In this document: positions 3,935 through 20,504 of the stretch, one piece after another | Position numbering within the stretch: position 1 is the first letter of the stretch | Layout: each line of letters starts with the position of its first letter | Source: a virus | DNA length: 21,102 bases | IMG/VR virus record: IMGVR_UViG_3300021140_000045 | Span: 1 to 21,102 of that record | Strand: one strand, 5' to 3' | Position numbers and translations under genes: made by a program | The notes under the pieces: generated by a model | The model's database searches: none | Told to the model about the DNA's origin: nothing | What the model saw: the letters and a program-made list of their open reading frames with translations, nothing else

Positions 3935-6900
3935 TTATAAAGTGAATGGATTACTTGTTGCGGTAAATGTACCAGAGTTGTCAGCATTTTCATAAATGAC
4001 CGATAAAACAAATCGACCACTAGAATTAACATCTATCACGTTTGTATATTTGGTGTCTGGGTTATTTGTTATAGTTATGTTCAATGGAATAGTTTGTTTT
4101 GAACCCTCGGCAACGAAAACTTTAGATATTTTACAAAGTGGACAATTAAATCTATAAGTGATAAATCCTCCATCAGGTCTTCTAATATTATAATACAATG
4201 GTCCTTGGAAACTCGGTAATGTAACATCAGTACTTCTCTGAATGAACGATAATGACCCTTGAGGTTGCACCCCTGTTTCGGAAGATGGAACTATCATTCG
4301 GAACCTAACTGATTTAGTATCATCTTTTGGATTCTTTTCTCTATTTTCAGGTCTAGCACGTAAATAAATTGATGTACTAATTTCCAATCTCTTTCCTTTT
4401 TCCATCTCAAGTACCTCACTAAACTCCGCATCAATAAACTGTTGTCTAGTAATTGAGAAAGTTTGTCCATCGGGAGATACAAAACCTAAAAGTTTAGACG
4501 ATTCTGACGTTTCAATTGAAGTTCGAGTAACCGTATTATTAGGCCCCACTTCAATGAGGTCGATAATATAACTGTATTCTACTTGAGGCTCTATTTTCCA
4601 TACCCCACCTACATAATCATTTTGATCCACTTTAACTGTTAAAATTTCAGTACCAAGTTCATTATCAATTTTTTCAGAAATAAACATAGGTGGATTTAAC
4701 ATAGTTTCTTGAAGATTGGCGCTACCGCTTACATTCTCTTGTTCAGAAACCGGAATAACTTCTGTAGTCTTAGTATCCTCGTAACCTCCAGGTGATGATG
4801 TTGTGGTATTCTGTAGTGCCGGATTAAATGTAAAATCTACTAAACTTTCAAAATTACCATATTCAGTTGTAACTGTTATTCTTCCTGTTGCAACATTTTG
4901 TCCTTCAGGGATTTGAATTTCAGGTAGAATAAATCTTAATGTTTCAGAATTGAACACTGTAATATCCTTCAACTCAACATCTTTATTAATTACTGTGATT
5001 GATTTCAAAGACTCAAAATTTCTACCATTCACTTGAACAATCGTACCCGTAAATCCTGCAGATGGTGAGAATGTAGATAAAACTGGTGGTGGACAAGTTT
5101 GACCGATAGTTGGAGTTACAGTTGGTGTTTGTTCTTGGTTTCCGTTGTTCTCATTATTTTCAATATCTTTAAGTATTTCGTTCTTTGTCTTCAATCCAGA
5201 TTCCGCAGCCGAAGTTAAAGCCTTGTCAAATGTTTGTTTAGTCTGTAAAAATTCGTTTTCATTTTCATTATAGTATTCTTCAGAAATGTTATCCACAGGC
5301 CAATGACAAACATAATACTTTGTTAATCCAAGCCGGACTATTCTATCAAGATTGCTTCGAAGTCTTCCAGCCATAAATTGGATATATTTGTCTAATGAAT
5401 CAAAATGAGCAATTGGTTCTGAGGACGCGTTTCCCGGATTAGTTCGTACGTTAATACAACTATATCTTTTTTCTAAAAGTGAAACCTGCCCAAACCAATC
5501 TTGACTCAGTGATAATGTTGCAAAATTATTGTTCCATCCGTTGAACATTCCAGCACCTGTATTAGAAGCTTCTTGATAAGTTCTGATGTAAGAAATAGTA
5601 TATATCGCAACTTGTAAATCAACGTTATTAGGAATTAACCTTTTCAACGCCTCTGCAAAAACTTGTGGAGTCATTTCAGTCAATGTCGCATCAACCGCTT
5701 CATATCCACCATTAGTGTACACAGGTGCAGTTATTTTTGAACTACAAGAATTTGTTGTGTCTTTTGTGTTATCCGCCTGTTGTACGACTTGGGCTGATTT
5801 AACATTATCAGTTGTTGCACTAATTTTTACTTGGTCCTTATTTATCTTCAGTATCTCTTCTAACTTTGTAATCAAATTTTGATTAATACTTTGTAGGAAA
5901 CTATCTATAGTAGGTAAATCGAAATAACCTTGTCTTGTTCCATCAAATGTAGTTTGAAACGACCCTTGTTGAATCGAGTGATTTACCTCCGTAATCAAGT
6001 ATGGTCCATCAAACATAGGAACATGTCGTAAATTAAAATACATTGTAGGTTGTATTAACGCATTTCCCAAACTCGTTATCGAACATTTATATGACCTATT
6101 TTTATACAAGTTATATAAACTATTATTTTGTGTTGCTATCTGTCTACCTGAAGCTTGATTTGCCATGTCAAGTTGAACGTTAATCGATTCAGATGTTGCC
6201 ACCCCATTATCTTGTGAAACAGATAATGCATAAAATATGTTTTGGTTTCTAATCCCCACATCAACATTGAATCCAACGCACTTGTTTGAAAGAGCCCAGT
6301 CTTTTTTTCCTTGTTGGTCTTCTAACAATGGATTACCAGATGACCTTCTCATCTCAAATGCATCATCTCTATATTTGGAATCTCCTTTAGGTAATTTCAA
6401 ATATTGTGAAGGTTTTCCTGCATAGAAGCAAACCATCTTTGGTCCCGAATTTCTATAATCAACATCTAAAAATGTTCCCCATAAATTATTTGCAAATTGT
6501 TCAGGTCTATCAAGTCTTGGAGTAGCCGTCACATCAACATCTTGAATATTGTAAAAATTCACATATGCTGGAAGTGGCATCACAACAAAATTATTTTTAA
6601 TCAAAATACCACTTATAAAAGTGAAAACACTCATTGCTTGATTAAGAGAAAAATCTCCAGGAGTTTTACCTCCAACACCAAACATGTATTTCAAATCAAA
6701 AATATCGAGTAATATACTATCTCCAATATTTCTCGATGCTCTATCCAAAAACAACATATCTTCAAATAGAGTTTTGGTTTTCCAATCCCCACCAGATATC
6801 CACTTGTCATTCAATGATTTGAAAACTTCATAATTTTCTACCTTACTTTGGTCTCCAGTAATAACACTATTAATTACACGTTCAGGTAATTGTACTTGGT

Positions 6901-9900
6901 CTGGTAGTCCATTTGGTGGTGGTTGTCTCAATCTAGTTAGAACTCCATTCAAAAAGTTGTTTTGTATTAGTGTTTCTCTCTCAAGATATTGATTTAGTTG
7001 ATTTTGGAATTGGATTGCATTCAGATTTGGATTATTTAATTTCTGAGTAGCATACATTTTAATAATTGGTGCTAACAATGTAACATTCTCACTAGTAAAT
7101 GATATATTGTTATCGATAAAAAAATCTGTAATATATGACCCAATTGAACTATATCTAACGTTGGGGATTGTTGAGAACCCTACTTCTGTTTCCAAAGCTG
7201 TCCAAGCTTGTCTATTATTGATTTGAGATTGACTTAATAATAAATTACCCCCAGCGCTCGGAAGAGAATTAGGTACGTAAGGTTCAAAAGTAATGGGGTC
7301 TACAACTTCCTGAGTATTATTATGAGATAAGTAAGAATCAAAAATTCTCCTTTCGTAGTTGGACGGATTACCATATTTGAATATTACATCATATTCCATA
7401 AATGATTTTATACCATTTTGAAATAATGAATATTGATTGTTAATCACATTGTTGAAATATAATTCGTCAGTTTCTGTTTGTATTTTAGCAGGAACTACCA
7501 TTAAACTTCTGAATAATGATTGGAAGTTTTTGAAAGTTGCATTTGGGTCAACAGGAGATTGTCCAAACGTGACAATATTTCTCCCTGTTGAAGCGTTACC
7601 AATTGGTTTACAAAAATTCAAAAACTCAGTTTCAAACGAATCTAAAATTTTCTTTTCGAAAACAGAAAACACTTCTTCTATTTTTGTATAGTTGTCTTGT
7701 GTTAGAAAATACAATGGTGTTTGGCTGTTGCCAGTCGTGATTGAAGTTAAATAGGAATCTGGTTCAGGGAATACCAACTGATTACTATCGAAATATCCAA
7801 AATTAGGTGCCGACCATAAACATCTTACCGACCCATTGTACATGTTTGGATTGTTAGTCAAATCCACAACAGTTGCTGGAGATGTTGTTTGCGCGCTCAA
7901 ACAAGAATCAACAGTTTGATTGAATGGTGTTCCAAACGACGGAATTACGAAATAATCATCACCTACAGTATTATCTTTAGGGTTACAATCAACTGGAGGT
8001 CTGATAGTTATGTTTGGTAATAAAATTGACCATGTAGTCAATCTTAAATTTTTATCCCCTTGTTTAGCACTATTAATGTTTGATGAACTGAAATTATATA
8101 ATTTCATACCATAATTAACACTCTGTTGGATTTCCTCACTTGTATAATTTTCGTACAAATCATATCCGTTTAGAAAAACGTTGAAGTCATTAATAACTTT
8201 AGGATAAAATCCGACTTGCATCTGAATTTGAGTAACATCTTCGCTTTGAAGTGTTATTTTTGTATCTACGTTTGAATACTTGAATTCATACGTTTCGGTT
8301 ACAGCACTTGTAACAGGATAGTAATTACCCGCATAATCAAAGTTTTTCCAAGCACTTTCTAATATATCAACATTCGACTCTTTGTATTTTTTGTACCTGT
8401 GCCAAATCGAACCATATTTTAGAATCCAAGCATATGGTAACTTGTGGATTGCTCCAAATTTTTTGAATGTTGATGATATGTAATCCAAATCGGTTGTAAT
8501 ATTGTTAGAAACAGATTTGTATTTTTCTCTCAATGTTGCCAAAGGTAATGAATTCAAGAACATATATGCAGCTTGAACATATGGATAGGTGATTCCTGAC
8601 AATCTAGAATTATAAACTCCGTTTTGCACAGCATTTATAAAGTAAGGTGTATTCAACATTGATGTGGTACTTCTTGGACTGAACGCTCTTGTCGGAGTGG
8701 TACCGTTAATATATCCTTCAGTCGCAACAAAATCCTGAGGGTTTCTATTCAAGTAGAACGCATTGAGTCCAAGTGGTCCATATGTTGTATATGTAGAAAG
8801 CCCAGTCGTATCAATAGTTCCTGTTGGATTTTGATTTAATATATATGAAAAATTTGTTACAGGTCTATTCGTTGTGTAGTTATACACGTCAGTAAAGTTT
8901 GCAATAATTCTTCTTTGCTCGAAAATAGTTAAAGACTTGTTTGTATTATAAACTTGATTGGATAAGGCACTATTTCCTTGATTCAAATTGTTAAGACACC
9001 AAGTTTGGTCTGTGTATGGTAAAGTATCAACAATTAAAGGGTCATTTGGCGCATTGACCACTAAAGATCTTAATGCCTCTGATTTTGTTGCGGTTTGAGG
9101 TATTTTACCTAAATCCAAAGTACTGAGAATTGAAAAGGAGTTTTCAGTTATTCTCTTAATATAGGGAGTAACAAAAAAATCTCTAATAAAATCTTGATAT
9201 GCTCTACCTGTTCCTGAGTTTGATATTGTCCTCAAAAATTCAGGATAGTCTTTAGCATTCAGATTAAAGTTTTTAAGTTTTAATGTTAAGTAGGGAGAAC
9301 TTATTCCAAGTTTTGAAATAATATTATTTGCTTCCGCCTCAATGTTTAATGTAATTAATTCATTAATCTGATTTGTGTTTGCTCTTATGAATCCAGAATA
9401 ATGTGAAGTTAAAAATTGTCTCTCCCATATTTCATAAAAAAACTTTATTTCTTCTTTGTTTGAATAAGCCAATCCTACCGACGGGAATTCGATTGCATTG
9501 ATATTAATAATATTGGTATCCCGTTCATTATCTAACGGTGGAGGGGCACTAGGATTTTGAAACTTTTGAGTCAACCCTTTCATATATTCCTCAACAAATT
9601 CAACTTCAGGCCATTTGTCGAAAAGATATCCTTGAGTCAAATCAACGACAGATGGGTCCGCAATGTATTTTAATTGAAATTTGTTTTTTTCATCTTGGGT
9701 TTCAACAAAAAATTGCGGCCATGGATACACAGGTATCTCAGCTAATTTTAGTCCAGTTTCTTCTTCAAATGCGTTTGCTGCTAATTTCAAATCATCTTGA
9801 GAGTCCGAACTTGGTGCTGAGGCTAAGTCATTATAAATTGCTTGTTTTCTTACTGGGTCGTATTTCACATCCCATGCATTTGTATGAACATCATCCAAAA

Positions 9901-11674
9901 GACGAATAAAACCCTCTGCGGATGCCATAATAACCGCTAACATATTTCTTACTGTAGGCTTAAAACCGATTCCAGTCGCGGTATCCTCAACTTTTCTTAA
10001 GAGAGCCGTAGAAATTTGACTTTCGTAATCAGATAGTTTTTTGTTAGCCTGAGTTTCGAGTAATGTGATTTGTTTATCAAATCTTCCTTCATCTTCAAAT
10101 ACAAACCATTTTTCTTTAACCAAAGTACCCTTAGACAAGAGTTCTAGTGTTTCAATAATTCCAGATGGGGTTTTAGGTAATTCTATAGAAGTTGGGACAA
10201 AAAACTTTGTCAAATTAATCTTCGTCTGTGTCTCATCTATAGCACTAGGATTTGCGATTCCAGTCTGAATTCTAGTTGTTTCTCTCCAATTTATTTCTGA
10301 AAACACCGGAGCCGTTGTTTCAATCATGTCATACTTTATAGGGTTTGGTATCGGAGCGGCACCTTTAGAACCTAAAGTCGGATTACTTGCCAAAGCATCA
10401 TTAAATTTTACAATATCCCCTTGTAGTTGAGTTATCGCAGTTTCTTTAGCTTCTTTTGACAAGTCTTTGAATACGTATAATTTTTGACCTGTTTTAAGAA
10501 CTATTGGCTTAGTATTCAAATTAACGTTAAACCAAGATGTATTTGACCCTCTTACTGCAGTAAAGTATTGTGTGAGAACAGATTTATAATTTCTTATATT
10601 CGTTAATGATTCAACTTCAGTTTTGTCAAATGAATCTGCAATTAGTTGTTCAAAAGTCTCCAACTTATTCATAAGTTGTACTAATGTCAATTCAGGAAAG
10701 TCGGGAGCAATTAACCCTTTAGCTTTGTATTCACTATAAACTTCTATTATTTTTTGATACCCTTTTTCCGCAACAAGTTGAGTAACCACCGCTTCATTAG
10801 AACCTAAATTATTAGCTCCCCTTTCAGCTTGAGTACTTGCTTGAGACTCCGCAGCCTTATTAGGTTGTTGTGGCCCATCTACTGTTTGAGTAACATCAAA
10901 CCTTTGACTGTACATGTGTGGCGCCGCCAATAGGTGACCCATAGAAACTTCATTCAAGATATTAAATTTATATCCGACAAAATTTAATCTAACCTGATAA
11001 TTTCCGCTAAATCCATTAAACGAAGCATGGAAATTTTTTAAGTTAAGTTGATATCTAATTGCTTGTCCATAATACCCTTTTAATGTAAGATAGAATTGTG
11101 GGTATGGTAAATTAAAAAATACAGAATATGGGGAATTATTCCCTAATTGAAATAATCCTTTTCCTTGGACATCTTCTAATAACATTTCTACCGTAGGAAT
11201 GAAACTTGATGACGTTTTTATATTAATTGACGTAATTCCTAACAATCCATTATCAATTATGTCTTTTTGATTTACAACCGTGTCAAGTATATAGGGGTTA
11301 CTATTATCTGTCGCAGGTTGGGTTATTGCCGCTTTTTGATTTTCCCCTTTGAACTGTGTTGTATTTTCTCCAGTTAACTCGTCATAATATCCTGTTCCAA
11401 TATATGAATTTTTAGTCGGTTTCAAGAAATTCATTTTTGCAACAGAGATAGTCCCGATTCTATCATTAGGACTTCCACCAACCGATAATTTTGTTCTTGG
11501 TAAAACATCAGCTTCCAAATTGGCATACATGACAAGATTTTCGTGGTCGACAAGCCGTTCTCTAATGTTTCCAAAATTATCTGTAGTTTTGTTAGGGTCG
11601 ACTACAATAATATTGTTTTCGTCCAACTCAACTAAAATATTTCCACTTGTGTCCGCTTGTGTGTTACCTACCAT
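3935..11674 (-). CDS. Giant baseplate/hub-type structural protein with TIG domain (2579 aa)
   Basis: This is the largest gene here and almost certainly a virion baseplate component. The N-terminal region (about 150-260) carries a conserved-looking block: VEMLLEDVQGKGLF, SPYSVFFNLPYPQFYLTLKGYYG, then NYQVRLNFVGYKF, which I associate with hub-type baseplate proteins of T4-like myoviruses. Residues about 260-1500 are Asn/Thr/Tyr-rich and unrecognised. Residues about 1875-1920 (MFDGPYLITEVNHSIQQGSF.TTFDGTRQGYF) resemble the end of a hub-like fold. Residues about 1990-2125 vaguely resemble a glucosaminidase/lysozyme-like domain. Residues about 2193-2280 are a TIG/IPT beta-sandwich (FSPSAGFTGTIVQVNGRNF onward), followed by further beta-rich sequence and a C-terminal CPLC. 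It overlaps the gp53-like gene by 11 nt, so the two are probably translationally coupled. The baseplate role is a confident inference; the exact T4 counterpart is not clear. Confidence 0.8.
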   Translation of the reverse strand: MVGNTQADTSGNILVELDENNIIVVDPNKTTDNFGNIRERLVDHENLVMYANLEADVLPRTKLSVGGSPNDRIGTISVAKMNFLKPTKNSYIGTGYYDELTGENTTQFKGENQKAAITQPATDNSNPYILDTVVNQKDIIDNGLLGITSINIKTSSSFIPTVEMLLEDVQGKGLFQLGNNSPYSVFFNLPYPQFYLTLKGYYGQAIRYQLNLKNFHASFNGFSGNYQVRLNFVGYKFNILNEVSMGHLLAAPHMYSQRFDVTQTVDGPQQPNKAAESQASTQAERGANNLGSNEAVVTQLVAEKGYQKIIEVYSEYKAKGLIAPDFPELTLVQLMNKLETFEQLIADSFDKTEVESLTNIRNYKSVLTQYFTAVRGSNTSWFNVNLNTKPIVLKTGQKLYVFKDLSKEAKETAITQLQGDIVKFNDALASNPTLGSKGAAPIPNPIKYDMIETTAPVFSEINWRETTRIQTGIANPSAIDETQTKINLTKFFVPTSIELPKTPSGIIETLELLSKGTLVKEKWFVFEDEGRFDKQITLLETQANKKLSDYESQISTALLRKVEDTATGIGFKPTVRNMLAVIMASAEGFIRLLDDVHTNAWDVKYDPVRKQAIYNDLASAPSSDSQDDLKLAANAFEEETGLKLAEIPVYPWPQFFVETQDEKNKFQLKYIADPSVVDLTQGYLFDKWPEVEFVEEYMKGLTQKFQNPSAPPPLDNERDTNIININAIEFPSVGLAYSNKEEIKFFYEIWERQFLTSHYSGFIRANTNQINELITLNIEAEANNIISKLGISSPYLTLKLKNFNLNAKDYPEFLRTISNSGTGRAYQDFIRDFFVTPYIKRITENSFSILSTLDLGKIPQTATKSEALRSLVVNAPNDPLIVDTLPYTDQTWCLNNLNQGNSALSNQVYNTNKSLTIFEQRRIIANFTDVYNYTTNRPVTNFSYILNQNPTGTIDTTGLSTYTTYGPLGLNAFYLNRNPQDFVATEGYINGTTPTRAFSPRSTTSMLNTPYFINAVQNGVYNSRLSGITYPYVQAAYMFLNSLPLATLREKYKSVSNNITTDLDYISSTFKKFGAIHKLPYAWILKYGSIWHRYKKYKESNVDILESAWKNFDYAGNYYPVTSAVTETYEFKYSNVDTKITLQSEDVTQIQMQVGFYPKVINDFNVFLNGYDLYENYTSEEIQQSVNYGMKLYNFSSSNINSAKQGDKNLRLTTWSILLPNITIRPPVDCNPKDNTVGDDYFVIPSFGTPFNQTVDSCLSAQTTSPATVVDLTNNPNMYNGSVRCLWSAPNFGYFDSNQLVFPEPDSYLTSITTGNSQTPLYFLTQDNYTKIEEVFSVFEKKILDSFETEFLNFCKPIGNASTGRNIVTFGQSPVDPNATFKNFQSLFRSLMVVPAKIQTETDELYFNNVINNQYSLFQNGIKSFMEYDVIFKYGNPSNYERRIFDSYLSHNNTQEVVDPITFEPYVPNSLPSAGGNLLLSQSQINNRQAWTALETEVGFSTIPNVRYSSIGSYITDFFIDNNISFTSENVTLLAPIIKMYATQKLNNPNLNAIQFQNQLNQYLERETLIQNNFLNGVLTRLRQPPPNGLPDQVQLPERVINSVITGDQSKVENYEVFKSLNDKWISGGDWKTKTLFEDMLFLDRASRNIGDSILLDIFDLKYMFGVGGKTPGDFSLNQAMSVFTFISGILIKNNFVVMPLPAYVNFYNIQDVDVTATPRLDRPEQFANNLWGTFLDVDYRNSGPKMVCFYAGKPSQYLKLPKGDSKYRDDAFEMRRSSGNPLLEDQQGKKDWALSNKCVGFNVDVGIRNQNIFYALSVSQDNGVATSESINVQLDMANQASGRQIATQNNSLYNLYKNRSYKCSITSLGNALIQPTMYFNLRHVPMFDGPYLITEVNHSIQQGSFQTTFDGTRQGYFDLPTIDSFLQSINQNLITKLEEILKINKDQVKISATTDNVKSAQVVQQADNTKDTTNSCSSKITAPVYTNGGYEAVDATLTEMTPQVFAEALKRLIPNNVDLQVAIYTISYIRTYQEASNTGAGMFNGWNNNFATLSLSQDWFGQVSLLEKRYSCINVRTNPGNASSEPIAHFDSLDKYIQFMAGRLRSNLDRIVRLGLTKYYVCHWPVDNISEEYYNENENEFLQTKQTFDKALTSAAESGLKTKNEILKDIENNENNGNQEQTPTVTPTIGQTCPPPVLSTFSPSAGFTGTIVQVNGRNFESLKSITVINKDVELKDITVFNSETLRFILPEIQIPEGQNVATGRITVTTEYGNFESLVDFTFNPALQNTTTSSPGGYEDTKTTEVIPVSEQENVSGSANLQETMLNPPMFISEKIDNELGTEILTVKVDQNDYVGGVWKIEPQVEYSYIIDLIEVGPNNTVTRTSIETSESSKLLGFVSPDGQTFSITRQQFIDAEFSEVLEMEKGKRLEISTSIYLRARPENREKNPKDDTKSVRFRMIVPSSETGVQPQGSLSFIQRSTDVTLPSFQGPLYYNIRRPDGGFITYRFNCPLCKISKVFVAEGSKQTIPLNITITNNPDTKYTNVIDVNSSGRFVLSVIYENADNSGTFTATSNPFTL

Positions 11675-11987: not shown

Positions 11988-14900
11988 TAGTTAAGTTTTG
12001 CTTTAGATATATATGCACCTGTGCTGTTTCCATTCAAATCATTCCAAGTTAATACATTTGTATTTTGATTGGTTGTATTTGCCAAACCTTTTATCATATT
12101 TTCTTGAGATTTTTTCTTAGTATCATCCGCAGTATTTTCTGATGTGAAAGTGAAATTTCGTTGTTTGCTAATATCGAATGGAGTATAAATTAAATAATCT
12201 TTTAAGTCATTTTTTTCTAAACTTTCCACAAATGATTTTGAAATATTATTCTCTTCCAAGAAAACTGGTCTTACCGTTGCAATCCAATATGTATCAAATA
12301 TTACCTCAATGTCAACAGACCCGTCTCCAAGTAACGCTTGGTTACCAAGAATATTCCCAATAAGTTCTTGCTTGAATGTTTCATATTTTTTTTCGTCAAT
12401 TACATCATCAGAAATAATCATATAAACTCTTCTAAAAGGATATTTTTCAACATTATCATCAAACAAAGGATTTTTGCTAAACGGTAAAAAAACTTTTTGT
12501 ACCGTAACATCATCTGCTTTCCCATTATCAGTTTCGAATACCAAAATTCCTTCATAGTTAGTCTTAGTTGCGGGATAATCAAAACTTGTTTTTGCTTGGA
12601 TAATATTATTAAAATTAGTAATATCTATTTGGATTTTAGTCGCATCTTCGTCTAGTTCGAGATATGTATTGGTGGCCCCCGTAGATGTTGGATGGACATC
12701 TGTCGTTCCAGATGTTACGTATATTCTGACAGGGCCATTTTTAGCTTGAAGTCCATCTGTACCTCTTTCATCGTCGGTTGGATCAAACAGTATTGTGTTT
12801 AATCTACCGAGAGTTTGAAGGTATGTTTGTTGTTGATTTACCAAACTTTGTGTTATAGTTGAAATTCCGTTTTGAAAAGACCCACGTTTTCTTGACACAA
12901 AATTTATATAATTTTCTTTCAAAACCCTAATTAACTTGGGTGATAAATTTTTGGAGGGTTCTGAAACAAATTGAATAAACCCTTCATCACCATCCTTGAT
13001 ATTTTTACTAAGTTCTGCAAAGATTTCATCAAATCTTTTCTCAACATTATTAGGTTTTCCGAACAACACTAAAGGGTTAGTATTAATACTCAAATTTCCT
13101 TGTGTATAATTTCGTTCTAACATCCACTGTTGTCTAACTGCGTTATTGTATTGATTTATAGTTTCTTTAGTTTTATTAACAACATTTGTAAAATATGTTT
13201 GAGTATCACTAACAACTCTACCCATAAATTCACTATAACTTATAACACCCGTTGTGATTCCACTTACATCTATTGAAGAACTAACTATCGCGCCAATAGT
13301 ATTATTGTTATCTTGACCATTATTTGGTGCGGCACTATTGACACCAGGTATTGGTGGTGGAACTTGACCAGCTAAAAATATTTGGTCTAATATTTTTGAA
13401 GACTCAATATCCGTGGCATCTGCCCTATCATCATAAATTTCTGTATTAGCATAATAATTGAAGGTCAATGCATTCTGTAACTTATCAACCGACTCTTTCA
13501 ATCCACTACCTCCAACAAAATTAAATGATAATGTGACGTTTGCAATCATTGGTTGAACACCAATTCCTTCAGGATTGATATCTAACCCTTCATAATTGAT
13601 TGCTAACGATGTAGGAATAATCTTTGTATTATAAAAATCACCTACTCTCAACACTAACACCGGTGGTGCTCCAAATGACGTGTTAGTTGCGTTATCATAC
13701 TGTAATTCCTGTTTACCACCCGGAGTAGATTGTTTAACTGTTGGTATTGTATCACCAGGTCTCATACACTGTTGTAAAAACGTCAACCTTGAATTTAATC
13801 CTTCAGGTGTCATAGAATGAAAAGATGGTTGAAAAAACTTCAACTTGTCTTTCAAATTATCATAAACCATCGGAGTTTCAGATTTGATAGTTTCAAAATA
13901 ATCACACTCGGATAATAAAGCTCTGACGACTTTTTTTGTAATATTATCTCTTGGTTCCCATCGTGGTTCAGTAGTAGGCTCAGGCACAGTCTGAGTGACA
14001 ACATTTCCAATTAAAATTGGGATTGTACCTGAACTTGTGGTGGGATTTGTCTGTCCTCCTGGTGTTCCTTCACCATTAGGCCCTGTCTGTGGAGCCTTTA
14101 AGTTTGGAACTATCTTTGAAATAAATGACCTTCTACAAGCCATTGCCCCAACTGTAAAAACTTCCTTAGCTCCAACTGGAGTATCACCTCCATCCGCACT
14201 TGGACTACTATCGCTACAATCAAATGTTTTTCCATTAGGCTCAAGTGAATCAATATATGGACCTTTGGTCAAACTGCTTTTCTTAGGATTAGATACTGCC
14301 ACTTCTCCGAGGGCTCCAGCTCTATCGGGACCAGTGCCAGTGTCTTCCTTAACCATCAAACGGTTTTGAGTCATAAATGTTTTTGTTGCATCGTTCTCCT
14401 GAAAAAATCTTACCGTTGCATCAATTCTACGTTTTGATAATTCAAGATTATATGATTCAGTTGCAGGAGCGGAACAACTCGAACTGACATATACTGTTAC
14501 AGTTCCTTCATTGTTTTGCAATTGTTTACCTAAATCAATTGCAAACTCATTCATAGATTCGTAATTTGGAGTGACTACTGTATCAAAAAAAGTCTTTGTT
14601 TCTTGAGCATTTGTCTGTTTGGAATACGTTTGATTAACCTCATCAGCGTATCTTGGGTATTCGGTAGCATAATTTATACTTGTTTTTGGTAGGGGATAAT
14701 TATTTCCAAAATAAAATCCTAGTTGTAAATATTTGTCGAAGTTTAAGTTTGTATTTCCACCTGCACCCTCTTGAGCGAGTGGTTGGTCTCCTCCATTAGG
14801 TGAGAATGCTCCTGATTCTATGGTTCCACGAGTATATACAATTTGTTCTCGGGTCATTTCCTTTGAAGAAATTGCTTGTTGTAATTCGAACAAATCATTT

Positions 14901-17163: not shown

Positions 17164-19011
17164 TCAGTAGGTAGACGCTCCTCCACCTCTAAACACGTTA
17201 TCAGGACGAGTAACTCTAACTATATAATCCTTAAACTTATCTTCATTCAATTTATCTGAAATAGTTTTTGAAATTTGTTCTTTTTGTTCGGAACTTAAAC
17301 CTGTTGGTAAATCTTGGAAATTCACGTTTACCTTTATTTCCCCAAGTAACTCAATTAGACTCTTTTGTTCTCTTACTTGACCCTCTACAGTACCTAAATT
17401 TCGGTTTGCTCCCCGCATCCCTTCAGCTGTGATATTTGTCCAAAAATCATCTTCGGTCGTTGTTCCTCCTTTACCATCAGGTATTGGAGATAAATTAGTT
17501 GCAAACTTTGCTAACATAGCATCAACATTACCAACCAAACTTGCAGCAAATCCTCCCTTCTCCTCTAATTTTTTCTTTATGTCTGTTCCAATATTACCAA
17601 AAAGTGTAAGGGCTTCACTTCCTAATTCTTTAATATTTCCCGCAGATACTTTACCTAATTCGGCCATAGCACCCATAATATCCCCCGAGGCAATTTTTGC
17701 TTGAATTTCTTTATTATTAGCAATGTCACCTGTCTTACCCTCACTTATCTCCCTAATTTTGTTTTTCCCTTTTTCTGTTGTTAGTTGCCCAGTAGTTGCC
17801 TCTCCAACAACATCTACACCTGTTCTGGCACCTTCAATAATATTTCGGATGTTTTTGTCGGTCAAAACACCACCTAATAAAGAGTAATTTATTGATGCAA
17901 GATAACTCGAACTAAGTTCGTCGATTGATAATTGTGCCTTAGCCAAATCTTCAAGTGTTTTTGGTCCATTTTTTTGTTCATCAATTAATTCATCTAATTG
18001 TTCTTGATTAAGTTCCCCTAATTTGACATAATCTTCTTGTCCTTTAATTTTAACTTCATACTCTCCTCCTTCACCCATTCTACCAATATTGGCAAGATAT
18101 TGTTTGTCCTCTTCGTTTTCAAACGCGAGGCTAGGACTTATTTGAGATAGTCTTTCATCCAACTCGGCAGCAGCTAATCCCAACTTACTCATTTCAGCGG
18201 CACTTACATTTGTTTGTTGTTGTATTTCTCTTAGAGTTAAAACACCTTGAGGGTTGATTTTGAATGTTTTAGTCTTTTCATCAAAATAAGTAAACTGTTT
18301 TGCAACATCAACTAAACTGTCTTGTAATTCTCCTGGGTCATTAATTGATGCATTCATTAGTGCAAACGGGTCCACTAAATTTCCCGCCGCAACTCCAAGT
18401 CTTTGAAAAGCGGATGCAACTTCGATTGCGCCCTCTGGTGATATTACTTTTTCAGCTAATTCAAAAGTTTGTTTCATATCAAATCTCAACAGTGAAGCTT
18501 GGGCCGCCATTTTCGTTAAACCTTGAACTCCACCTTCAAATTGAAAACGGTTCATTTGGGCCATATTGTCAGTCACATCTTTCATGACTTGTTTGGCATT
18601 CGCTCCAATACTTCTTACATAGTTGATTGAATCTTCGAGACTTTCTCCCATTTCTCCTATTCCAACACCAACATTCATAAATGCAGTTGAAAGTTCACCA
18701 GCATTTATATTTAGAAGTTTGTAAGCGGCAACTAACTCTCTTGTATTTTCTGTAGTCTCAATAACATTTCTTCGAGATGATATTGCAATACCTTCAATTT
18801 GTTTCCCTAAATTTGGTAAGTCCACACCAAAGGCTCTTACTTGAGGTAAAACGTCAGTAATTGATTGTTGGAATTCAGTTACTCTTTGTCTCCCTTGAGT
18901 AAAGGTCGAAAGAATTTGACCAGATAATTTATCTAAACCTTTTCGGACAGCATCAATATCAAAATTTTCAGCTTCAGGTTTGTCTGCTCCGGGTGAGTCT
19001 TGAAAGAACAT
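17164..19011 (-). CDS. Tail tape measure protein
   Basis: This 615-aa protein has the tape-measure look: long helical, low-cysteine sequence with repeated Ala/Gly/Leu-rich amphipathic stretches over the first 450 residues (for example LDKLSGQILSTFTQGRQ, NTRELVAAYKLLNINAGELSTAFMNVGVGIGEMGESLEDS, VASAFQRLGVAAGNLVDPFALMNASINDPGELQDSLVDV). A Gly-rich region near 480-530 precedes a charged C-terminus ending FRGGGASTY. Its size is close to T4 gp29 (590 aa). With the usual ratio of about 1.5 angstrom per residue this predicts a tail near 90 nm. It lies between the gp26/gp51-like assembly genes and the baseplate genes, the normal place for a tape measure gene. A terminator hairpin and a TATTTAT motif precede it, so it probably starts its own transcript. 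Confidence 0.85.
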   Translation of the reverse strand: MFFQDSPGADKPEAENFDIDAVRKGLDKLSGQILSTFTQGRQRVTEFQQSITDVLPQVRAFGVDLPNLGKQIEGIAISSRRNVIETTENTRELVAAYKLLNINAGELSTAFMNVGVGIGEMGESLEDSINYVRSIGANAKQVMKDVTDNMAQMNRFQFEGGVQGLTKMAAQASLLRFDMKQTFELAEKVISPEGAIEVASAFQRLGVAAGNLVDPFALMNASINDPGELQDSLVDVAKQFTYFDEKTKTFKINPQGVLTLREIQQQTNVSAAEMSKLGLAAAELDERLSQISPSLAFENEEDKQYLANIGRMGEGGEYEVKIKGQEDYVKLGELNQEQLDELIDEQKNGPKTLEDLAKAQLSIDELSSSYLASINYSLLGGVLTDKNIRNIIEGARTGVDVVGEATTGQLTTEKGKNKIREISEGKTGDIANNKEIQAKIASGDIMGAMAELGKVSAGNIKELGSEALTLFGNIGTDIKKKLEEKGGFAASLVGNVDAMLAKFATNLSPIPDGKGGTTTEDDFWTNITAEGMRGANRNLGTVEGQVREQKSLIELLGEIKVNVNFQDLPTGLSSEQKEQISKTISDKLNEDKFKDYIVRVTRPDNVFRGGGASTY

Positions 19012-19036: not shown

Positions 19037-19062
19037 AAAAGGACTGATTTTTCAGTCCTTTT
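19037..19062 (-). terminator. Terminator overlapping the end of the gp51-like ORF
   Basis: A perfect 11-bp stem AAAAGGACTGA / TCAGTCCTTTT with a 4-nt loop, followed by a T/A-rich stretch on the minus strand. The stop codon TGA of the gp51-like frame (19052-19054) is part of the stem. It closes the gp26/gp51-like unit. The symmetric A and T arms mean it could work in both directions. Confidence 0.8.
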
Positions 19063-19231
19063 TGTTTAGTTCAACCCATTTATCTAAAAGATACTTCCTA
19101 ATGAATATTGGCATTATTAAAAAATCAGAATAAGATATATTCAAAAGTGTTTTCAGAAAGTAAAATTCATCTATTTGTCCTTTCCTATAATCAGAAGAAA
19201 GGGCGAAAAAAGTCAACCCCAAACCCAACAT
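19052..19231 (-). CDS. 51: gp51-like tail/hub assembly ORF, in the +1 frame relative to the gp26-like gene
   Basis: A short ORF overlaps the 3' end of the gp26-like gene in the +1 frame and ends in the terminator stem. From the ATG at 19231 it encodes 59 aa. The part beyond the overlap reads DEFYFLKTLLNISYSDFLIMPIFIRKYLLDKW onward. It has an aromatic helix, an 'MPI..R..L' segment and a charged lysine-rich tail, which resembles the small gp51-type hub assembly proteins that follow gp26 in T4-like phages and the C-terminal extension of tail assembly chaperones. It may be made from its own ATG, or as a C-terminal extension of the gp26-like protein by +1 frameshifting at 19205-19211, giving about 293 aa. 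The frame has no stop between 19231 and 19054. Coding status is well supported by the protein-like sequence; the gp51 name is tentative. Confidence 0.65.
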   Translation of the reverse strand: MLGLGLTFFALSSDYRKGQIDEFYFLKTLLNISYSDFLIMPIFIRKYLLDKWVELNKKD

Positions 19232-19934
19232 TGACTGTTAGTTTCTCTCCTGATGGGGCTATTACTGTTCTCGTTAAATCTAATTTAGGTTCATTATCAT
19301 CCATGAACTTTCTAATATATTTTGAATCTGCAATTGGCATTTGGTCTACAAACTTGGCGATTTCAGATTTGTCTGTTATCCCATTTACCTCTGTAATTTG
19401 TTTGTTCAACCTCCAAGTAACTTTTGGTGCAGTCCTTCCTTGAGGATACGACTCCGACATTTTTTGAATCTCTAAAATCTCACCATAAGTTAAAGGTTTT
19501 ATCTTTACAGTAGTTTGAGACTTTGGTAACATAGTTACAAAAGTTCCATCATCCAATGGTTGTTGTCCTTTAATAACATCTAATTCATCTAATCTGACAT
19601 TCCCTTTGAATGGCTTTTTTGTAATTGGGTCAACTAAGTTCAAATCCATTTCAGGCCCAAACGATGTATTTCTTAAAAAAATTAATATTGATTCAACATC
19701 TCCTTCTAATAAATCTTCAATACGAACATCTGGTTCATAGATTTTAGATCTTAATAAAATTTGAGTCATGTCGTTACCGCCAGCCATGAGGATGTTTTCA
19801 TCATTCGCTGTAAGATATCCAACTTTGATAGATTTTTTCTTATTCTTATAAAAGAGACCTTGTGTCGGTAAAGGCACAACGTCATGAGGTAACGAAAAAT
19901 TTGATTGTCCGTGTTCTTTTGCTTGATTATCCAT
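19191..19934 (-). CDS. 26: gp26-like baseplate hub / tail assembly protein
   Basis: This 247-aa protein fits the T4 gp26-type baseplate family. It has a low-complexity start, the LPTQGLFY motif (22-29), the LTANDENILM segment (41-50), LLEGDVESILIFLRNTSFG (75-93), and a middle with LKPLTYGEIL-like sequence (KIKPLTYGEILEIQKM, 144-159). T4 gp26 is 208 aa and acts in assembly of the central hub. Here the gene sits between the tail tube and tape measure genes, exactly where tail assembly chaperones lie in siphoviruses and many myoviruses, so a chaperone role around the tape measure is equally likely. The last five sense codons follow a run of six T residues, and a second frame continues past its TGA, suggesting a frameshifted longer product. 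The preceding hairpin ends 8 nt before the ATG. Confidence 0.75.
   Translation of the reverse strand: MDNQAKEHGQSNFSLPHDVVPLPTQGLFYKNKKKSIKVGYLTANDENILMAGGNDMTQILLRSKIYEPDVRIEDLLEGDVESILIFLRNTSFGPEMDLNLVDPITKKPFKGNVRLDELDVIKGQQPLDDGTFVTMLPKSQTTVKIKPLTYGEILEIQKMSESYPQGRTAPKVTWRLNKQITEVNGITDKSEIAKFVDQMPIADSKYIRKFMDDNEPKLDLTRTVIAPSGEKLTVNVGFGVDFFRPFF
19202..19214 (-). other. Candidate programmed +1 frameshift site
   Basis: On the minus strand the zero frame reads GAC TTT TTT CGC, giving Asp-Phe-Phe-Arg four codons before the TGA. If the Phe-tRNA on the second TTT slips forward one base it pairs with TTC, its preferred codon, and reading continues GCC CTT TCT TCT in the gp51-like frame for 50 residues. 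The next zero-frame codon is CGC, likely rare in this AT-rich genome, which could cause the pause. No standard -1 heptamer is present in the right phase. Seen in the sequence; function inferred. Confidence 0.5.
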
Positions 19935-20015: not shown

Positions 20016-20504
20016 TTAGTAAACAAGTACGCAACGATCCATTCTAAGTGTTGCGTTAATTGTTGCTAGTCCGTCTTGTGCGTAACTCAAAGCGTTGAAG
20101 TTCACATCAGTCAAAAATGTTCCATAAAGAATCCATTTTTCTACAACAACACCAGTTGGGTCCAACATTTCGAGGTCAACATCTTTTTTATAACCTGCAG
20201 CATAACCCATACGACCTGTTACAGATTCAGCATGTAAACGTACCCACTCCATAAGAGCCTGAGCCGCTGAAGGTCCAATCGGATCTCTAAACACCGCTGG
20301 AATTGTTTGCCAAGTGAATTTACCCGCAACATAAGTTTCAGTATTCAAGAAAGGAATTGGAACGGGGTTTATAATAATATGTGGTCTTGCAGAAGATTCA
20401 ACAAACCATTCATTTATACCAAGTGATGATGGAAACCTCAGGATAAAACGATTCTGTCGTTTTGGTTCGTAAGGAATCGGCATTTTCATTAACAAATCAG
20501 CCAT
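20016..20504 (-). CDS. 19: Tail tube protein, T4 gp19 family
   Basis: This 162-aa protein matches T4 gp19 (163 aa) in length and pattern. The N-terminus has PYEPKRQNRFILRFPSSLGI and VESSARPHI, the start of the tube beta-barrel; FLNTETYVAGKFTWQTIPAVFRDPIGPSA follows; then the helix ALMEWVRLHAES; and the C-terminal strand region EKWILYGTFLTDVNFNALSYAQDGLATINATLRMDRCVLVY. Hexameric rings of this protein stack to form the inner tail tube. The gene has its own leader with the TATTTAT motif and an A-rich initiation region with no Shine-Dalgarno. It is followed by a strong terminator, as expected for a highly expressed single-gene unit. No sheath gene is in the window. Confidence 0.9.
   Translation of the reverse strand: MADLLMKMPIPYEPKRQNRFILRFPSSLGINEWFVESSARPHIIINPVPIPFLNTETYVAGKFTWQTIPAVFRDPIGPSAAQALMEWVRLHAESVTGRMGYAAGYKKDVDLEMLDPTGVVVEKWILYGTFLTDVNFNALSYAQDGLATINATLRMDRCVLVY

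Follow-up and report, generated by a model that had tools for sequence, protein, structure and literature searches.

Probable +1 frameshifting in a gp26-like gene of a T4-related virus, giving short and long tail assembly chaperones

Near the end of a gp26-like gene in the viral DNA analysed here, ribosomes very probably slip forward by one base, giving a short and a long form of one tail helper protein. This is how we read the gene and its relatives at the level of sequence, and we put the probability that one gene yields two tail assembly chaperones through a +1 slip near its end at about 84%. The arrangement is of a known general kind, since long-tailed phages generally, "except T4", obtain a short and a long chaperone through a shift close to where the short gene ends (PMC5009743). 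The part of which we found no report in the literature searched is the +1 mode in the gp26/gp51 family.

The gp26-like gene and its second frame

The window, by which we mean the whole 21,102-base contig analysed, comes from a large T4-related virus of bacteria. Its T4-type genes lie on the minus strand and include an exonuclease, a UvsX-like recombinase, a single-strand binding protein, baseplate genes and a tail tube gene. The last of these (gp19-like, 20016-20504, minus strand; phrog_4542 tail tube protein, E 2.5e-21) is upstream of the gp26-like gene (19191-19934, minus strand). On the other side stands a 615-residue putative tape measure protein (17164-19011, minus strand), so named for its position; similarity and family searches with it gave no match, and the genes at the corresponding place in Flavobacterium phage immuto and Listeria phage LIS04 are annotated as tape measure. 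The 247-residue product of the gp26-like gene matches both PF12322 (T4_baseplate; E 5e-9, 36.5 bits against a cut-off of 24.5) and phrog_150 (E 1e-13), and PF12322 is matched by 51 of 62 relatives as well.

Codons 241-248 of this gene read GAC TTT TTT CGC CCT TTC TTC TGA (19214-19191, minus strand). The 0 frame does end near TTT TTT CGC, as the original prediction had it, with the correction that the stop (TGA, 19193-19191) is the fourth and not the fifth codon after CGC. The +1 frame is open from a stop upstream of an ATG at 19231 to a TGA at 19054-19052, and beyond the presumed shift site (GAC TTT TTT CGC, 19214-19203, minus strand) it encodes 51 residues (FALSSDYRKGQ...VELNKKD; 19207-19055, minus strand), our candidate C-terminal domain. 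Its stop codon lies inside a terminator-like inverted repeat followed by a T-run (19063-19036, minus strand; stem AAAGGACTGA...TCAGTCCTTT), found by direct reading of the sequence; the earlier description of a frame running some 50 residues into a terminator stem thus proved accurate in its coordinates and frames. CGC had also been guessed to be rare, and the main ORFs of the window (approximately 6,824 codons) contain it once, at the shift site, which is also their only in-frame TTT-CGN; CGT is used 29 times.

In the mechanism that we propose, most ribosomes would remain in the 0 frame and stop at 19193-19191, releasing the 247-residue short chaperone (TAC-N). A fraction would stall while the P site holds TTT and the A site the rare CGC, for which about half of the close relatives have CGT, and the Phe-tRNA, which reads both UUU and UUC, would slip one base forward, from UUU to UUC or already on the first UUU, with translation resuming at GCC in the +1 frame. 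Re-pairing of the P-site tRNA one base on is possible in the window (TTT to TTC or TTT), and the TTC-TTT-CGT variants of relatives permit it too. The shifted product (19934-19052, minus strand), a presumed long chaperone of 293 residues (TAC-NC), would read ...VGFGVDFFALSSDYR across the junction and would carry an extra three-helix domain (TAC-C) made only after the shift. No conserved RNA structure was found downstream of the site (mean z -0.5 to -0.1), which leaves the rare A-site codon as the best candidate for a stimulator, if there is one; no clear upstream stimulator was found either. The slip itself, the exact codon at which it takes place, its efficiency and the chaperone function of the products are what we infer from these observations.

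A slip of the same type is established for influenza A PA-X, at UUU_CGU (PMC3498833), and there, as we propose for the window, a P-site Phe-tRNA slips on UUU_C while the A site is occupied by a CGN codon for Arg. Influenza A is, however, a eukaryotic virus and the gene is unrelated; in the present case a second Phe codon precedes the site, and UGG takes the place of CGN in a large part of the family. Among phage structural and tail-assembly genes, +1 shifts have been described for Listeria phage PSA and, as a likely case, for the tail chaperone of halovirus HSTV-2 (PMC5009743). PSA slips on proline codons in its capsid and tail shaft genes, unlike the window, and the likeness to the HSTV-2 chaperone is drawn from that review's description.

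Other features of the window may be recorded here. Its main genes have no Shine-Dalgarno-like motif upstream, and their leaders are A/T-rich, like those of Bacteroidota phages. A giant protein of 1708 residues in the baseplate region has a weak Pal/OmpA-like match at approximately residues 860-911 (14381-14536, minus strand; TIGR02802, E 0.12; NF033763, E 0.013), and a 2579-residue protein of the hub region (3935-11674) seems, by eye, to contain an IPT/TIG-like stretch (FSPSAGFTGTIVQVNGRNF...).

Conservation of the overlap and other routes into the second frame

Comparison with close relatives, taken as the best 80 of 165 found in IMG/VR (75-100% identity), argues strongly for the +1 reading. 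All 80 keep the 247-codon 0 frame, the motif TTTTTTCG[CT]CCTTTCTTCT (TTTTTTCGY, invariant), a TGA or TAA at the 0-frame stop and the open +1 frame. When the 47 distinct sequences are scanned along the whole gene in 8-codon windows, entropy is lowest in those that begin at codons 239-240, and from codon 239 on the mean codon entropy is 0.26 bit, against a gene mean of 1.25. Downstream of the 0-frame stop, dN/dS is 0.087 for the +1 frame, as compared with 0.85 and 1.97 for the other two, which means that the extension evolves as a protein under purifying selection. The conservation of overlap and site is far beyond chance and, judged by these patterns of substitution, both frames are coding.

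A break in frame at a homopolymer can always raise the thought of a sequencing or assembly indel within a single in-frame gene, such runs being indel-prone. Here the same break is common to hundreds of independent contigs and to complete isolate genomes whose local sequences differ, and the relatives had in effect already refuted an artefact of this kind; we give it next to no chance.

The original prediction offered simple overlapping genes as its own alternative, with the +1 protein translated separately from the ATG at 19231-19229 (minus strand); such a product would have 59 residues. In favour of this, 36 of 37 distinct close sequences have a +1-frame ATG upstream of the T-run, and the C-terminal domain is annotated as a separate small gene in many phages. 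Yet one close relative (L007) has a TAG directly after that ATG, in an open stretch with no other start, and among distinct distant relatives the overlap contains no ATG in 62/82 and 19/26 cases, and neither ATG, GTG nor TTG in 22/82 and 11/26. Moreover, the T-run is the most conserved stretch although a separate gene would need none, and T4 gp51 has the domain within one polypeptide. On the sequences, then, independent starts are excluded in many relatives; the ATG is rejected as the start of a separate gene, being unusable or absent in so many of them while T-run and overlap are conserved, and overlapping genes strike us as distinctly improbable.

Translational coupling would have ribosomes terminate at 19193-19191 and restart nearby in the +1 frame. 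The overlap would allow such termination-reinitiation, and in some of the relatives with a -1 overlap, discussed below, the stop overlaps an ATG (TAATG). In the window, however, the sole +1-frame ATG downstream of the stop is that for the Met of DFLIMP, leaving only about 18 residues, and coupling explains neither the conserved T-run nor the fused form in T4 gp51; we hold it to be very improbable indeed.

The +1 slip draws further support from more distant relatives, since a +1 overlap is found in 109 of 112 distant viral contigs: all 80 of those near immuto and 29 of the 32 near Bacillus phage SP-15. It is seen also in Microcystis phage Mel-JY01, uncultured phage LR756508, Streptococcus phage GXN1 and Listeria phage LIS04, and in five contigs binned with WOR-3, Alphaproteobacteria, Woesearchaeota, Flavobacteriales and an unnamed bacterium. 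The sites fall into types: TTY-TTT-CGN in the window and SP-15 groups, TTT-TTT-TGG or TTT-CTT-TGG in the immuto group, and, at a few sites among the +1 relatives, TTA-TTT-AAT.

These variants bear on a further alternative, in which ribosomes enter this frame by shifting -2, or RNA polymerase slips on the T-run and so alters the number of Us. The six-T run of the window would permit both, and phage Mu is a described case of a -2 shift. However, 33 of the +1 loci have no T-run longer than 3-4 near the site, as in GAA TTC TTT CGT, which makes polymerase slippage unlikely there, and a -2 slip at that sequence would bring the Phe-tRNA onto TCT, a mispair, where the +1 move from TTT to TTC pairs perfectly. 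We consider both of these routes improbable.

Seven gut-type loci (L255, L256 and L258-L262), from gut Bacteroidota-type bins and one Gastranaerophilales bin, have the C-terminal domain in neither shifted frame; perhaps they have another solution, or the domain lies elsewhere. The SP-15-type relatives (L182-L213) carry a CPxCG...C-x-x-C zinc-ribbon-like motif in their short form, which the window group does not have. A scan with XacN1 as query returned no loci.

Kinship with T4 gp26 and gp51, and predicted folds

Both gp26 (208 aa) and gp51 (249 aa) of T4 belong to PF12322/phrog_150; phrog_634 is a further family listed for the T4 pair. The former ends at position 235 of the 282 in the profile and the latter reaches 280; gp51 is thus itself PF12322 plus an extra C-terminal domain, with the unshifted product of the window corresponding to gp26 and the shifted one to gp51. 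A fusion of gp26-like and gp51-like frames had been proposed, and one shifted product is indeed what we would expect, but not one in which a complete gp51 follows a gp26. The two T4 proteins are paralogues that match the window's single gene, gp26 as its short and gp51 as its long form, and the C-terminal domain of gp51 is in line with the domain in the window's +1 frame. T4 gp26 still ends ...KEFFELL, with TTC TTT.

Establishing the link for the C-terminal domain itself required pooled profiles of relatives, since the window's +1 piece of 51-59 residues had no significant match in family scans and no BLAST hit to T4 gp51; the expected match of the +1 ORF to gp51 families therefore appears with the pooled domains and not with the single piece. 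Pooled +1 and -1 C-terminal domains match the gp51 C-terminus (Prob 86%, E 5.5e-6), the +1 group matches the -1 group (E 3e-6) and the -1 group matches gp51 (E 3e-9). As a control, 100 column shuffles were made for each of these pairs of C-terminal domain profiles, and the real scores of 28.9-42.4 compare with a shuffle maximum of 17.5; the +1 C-terminal domains alone against gp51 score weakly, 18.0 against a shuffle maximum of 15.4. The fused products, taken as a profile, cover most of the length of gp51 and extend into its C-terminus (Prob 90%, E 1.5e-6). At the level of these profiles the homology with gp26/gp51 is established. When 62 C-terminal domains were scanned against PHROGs, the most-matched families were "tail assembly chaperone", with 12 of the domains, and "baseplate hub assembly catalyst", with 6, each match being weak.

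The short form and the C-terminal domain were folded apart with AlphaFold, and both predictions are confident (mean pLDDT 88 for the former, and 91.7 for the latter, which forms three helices). Against the PDB, the short form has its most probable match in 2ob9, the tail assembly chaperone of HK97, a weak match (prob 0.47, E 0.89) between a modelled fold and a known one that is suggestive only; when predicted viral structures are searched instead, it matches gp26-type proteins of the baseplate hub. A structure search with the C-terminal domain found proteins named as tail assembly chaperones at ranks 8-9 (E ~3). Taken together, the place of the gene, its weakly matched fold and the motif at the C-terminus suggest a tail assembly chaperone.

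What these proteins may do is suggested by phage lambda, where gpG and gpGT are a short and a long form from one gene, with the shift near its 3' end and the gene between those for tube and tape measure, an arrangement like that proposed for the window. Lambda shifts by -1 and the window presumably by +1, the likeness being one of gene arrangement. By this analogy, many copies of the short form would coat the tape measure protein and the extra domain of a few long copies would recruit the tube protein, the two products thus presumably acting as chaperones of tape measure and tube proteins.

Shift direction across the family

Overlaps in the -1 direction occur in Kyanoviridae, Ackermannviridae, Schizotequatrovirus, XacN1, Atu_ph07 and others. 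These phages have a two-part gene like that of the window, for the most part with the same T-run, but their 0 frame is phased T TTT TTC G, with the domain in the -1 frame, in contrast to TTT TTT CGC and the +1 frame in the window. Cyanophage S-CAM22 illustrates this well: the nine bases TTTTTTCGC are common to it (L239, 4665-4684) and to the window (19211-19203) in opposite phase, the cyanophage having a 0 frame of T TTT TTC GCA with a -1 domain, where the window has TTT TTT CGC with a +1 domain.

Vladimirov et al. (2022), as summarised in PMC10885494 and PMC12846349, identified the chaperone genes of T4-like phages and proposed separate short and long genes rather than frameshifting; PMC12846349, in the statement concerned, also credits them with poly-T -1 signals in T4-like phages. 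By that account (Vladimirov 2022, cited in PMC10885494) T4 relies on a pair of genes and does not frameshift, whereas the window has one gene with a +1 overlap.

In a tree of 79 short-form sequences, the +1 loci split off (99% SH-aLRT) from the side holding most of the -1 phages, and gp26 and gp51 form a sister pair (89%) nested among the latter. XacN1 and Atu_ph07, with -1 overlaps, fall on the +1 side on long branches, and may be misplaced. On balance, we think it probable that one family has come to its short/long pair by three routes: a +1 shift in the clade of the window, a -1 shift on TTTTTTCG in the other phase in cyanophages and others, and gene duplication in T4, whose gp26/gp51 pair is nested among the -1 users, which would make the T4 "exception" a derived replacement of frameshifting.

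In cyanophages and other phages, the small ORFs that go by the name "gp51" or "hub assembly catalyst" consist of the C-terminal domain by itself. Five that are annotated "baseplate hub assembly catalyst (gp51)" (L243 2217-2402, L244 2214-2375, L246 2337-2504, L249 2193-2372 and L242 4309-4482) connect with the gp26-like gene through a -1 frame that is open, and are probably misannotated as separate genes. Many annotations would thus need correcting, whether they give the short form only or the C-terminal domain as a gene of its own. For bacterial +1 sites of the UUU-CGN type, the family also provides a large set of natural variants. T4 is the textbook exception to chaperone frameshifting (PMC5009743), and the locus described here would, with its relatives, place the T4 pair in a family of ribosome slippage whose direction differs by clade; gp26 and gp51, hub assembly proteins of little-known mechanism, would thereby gain a testable role and a history.
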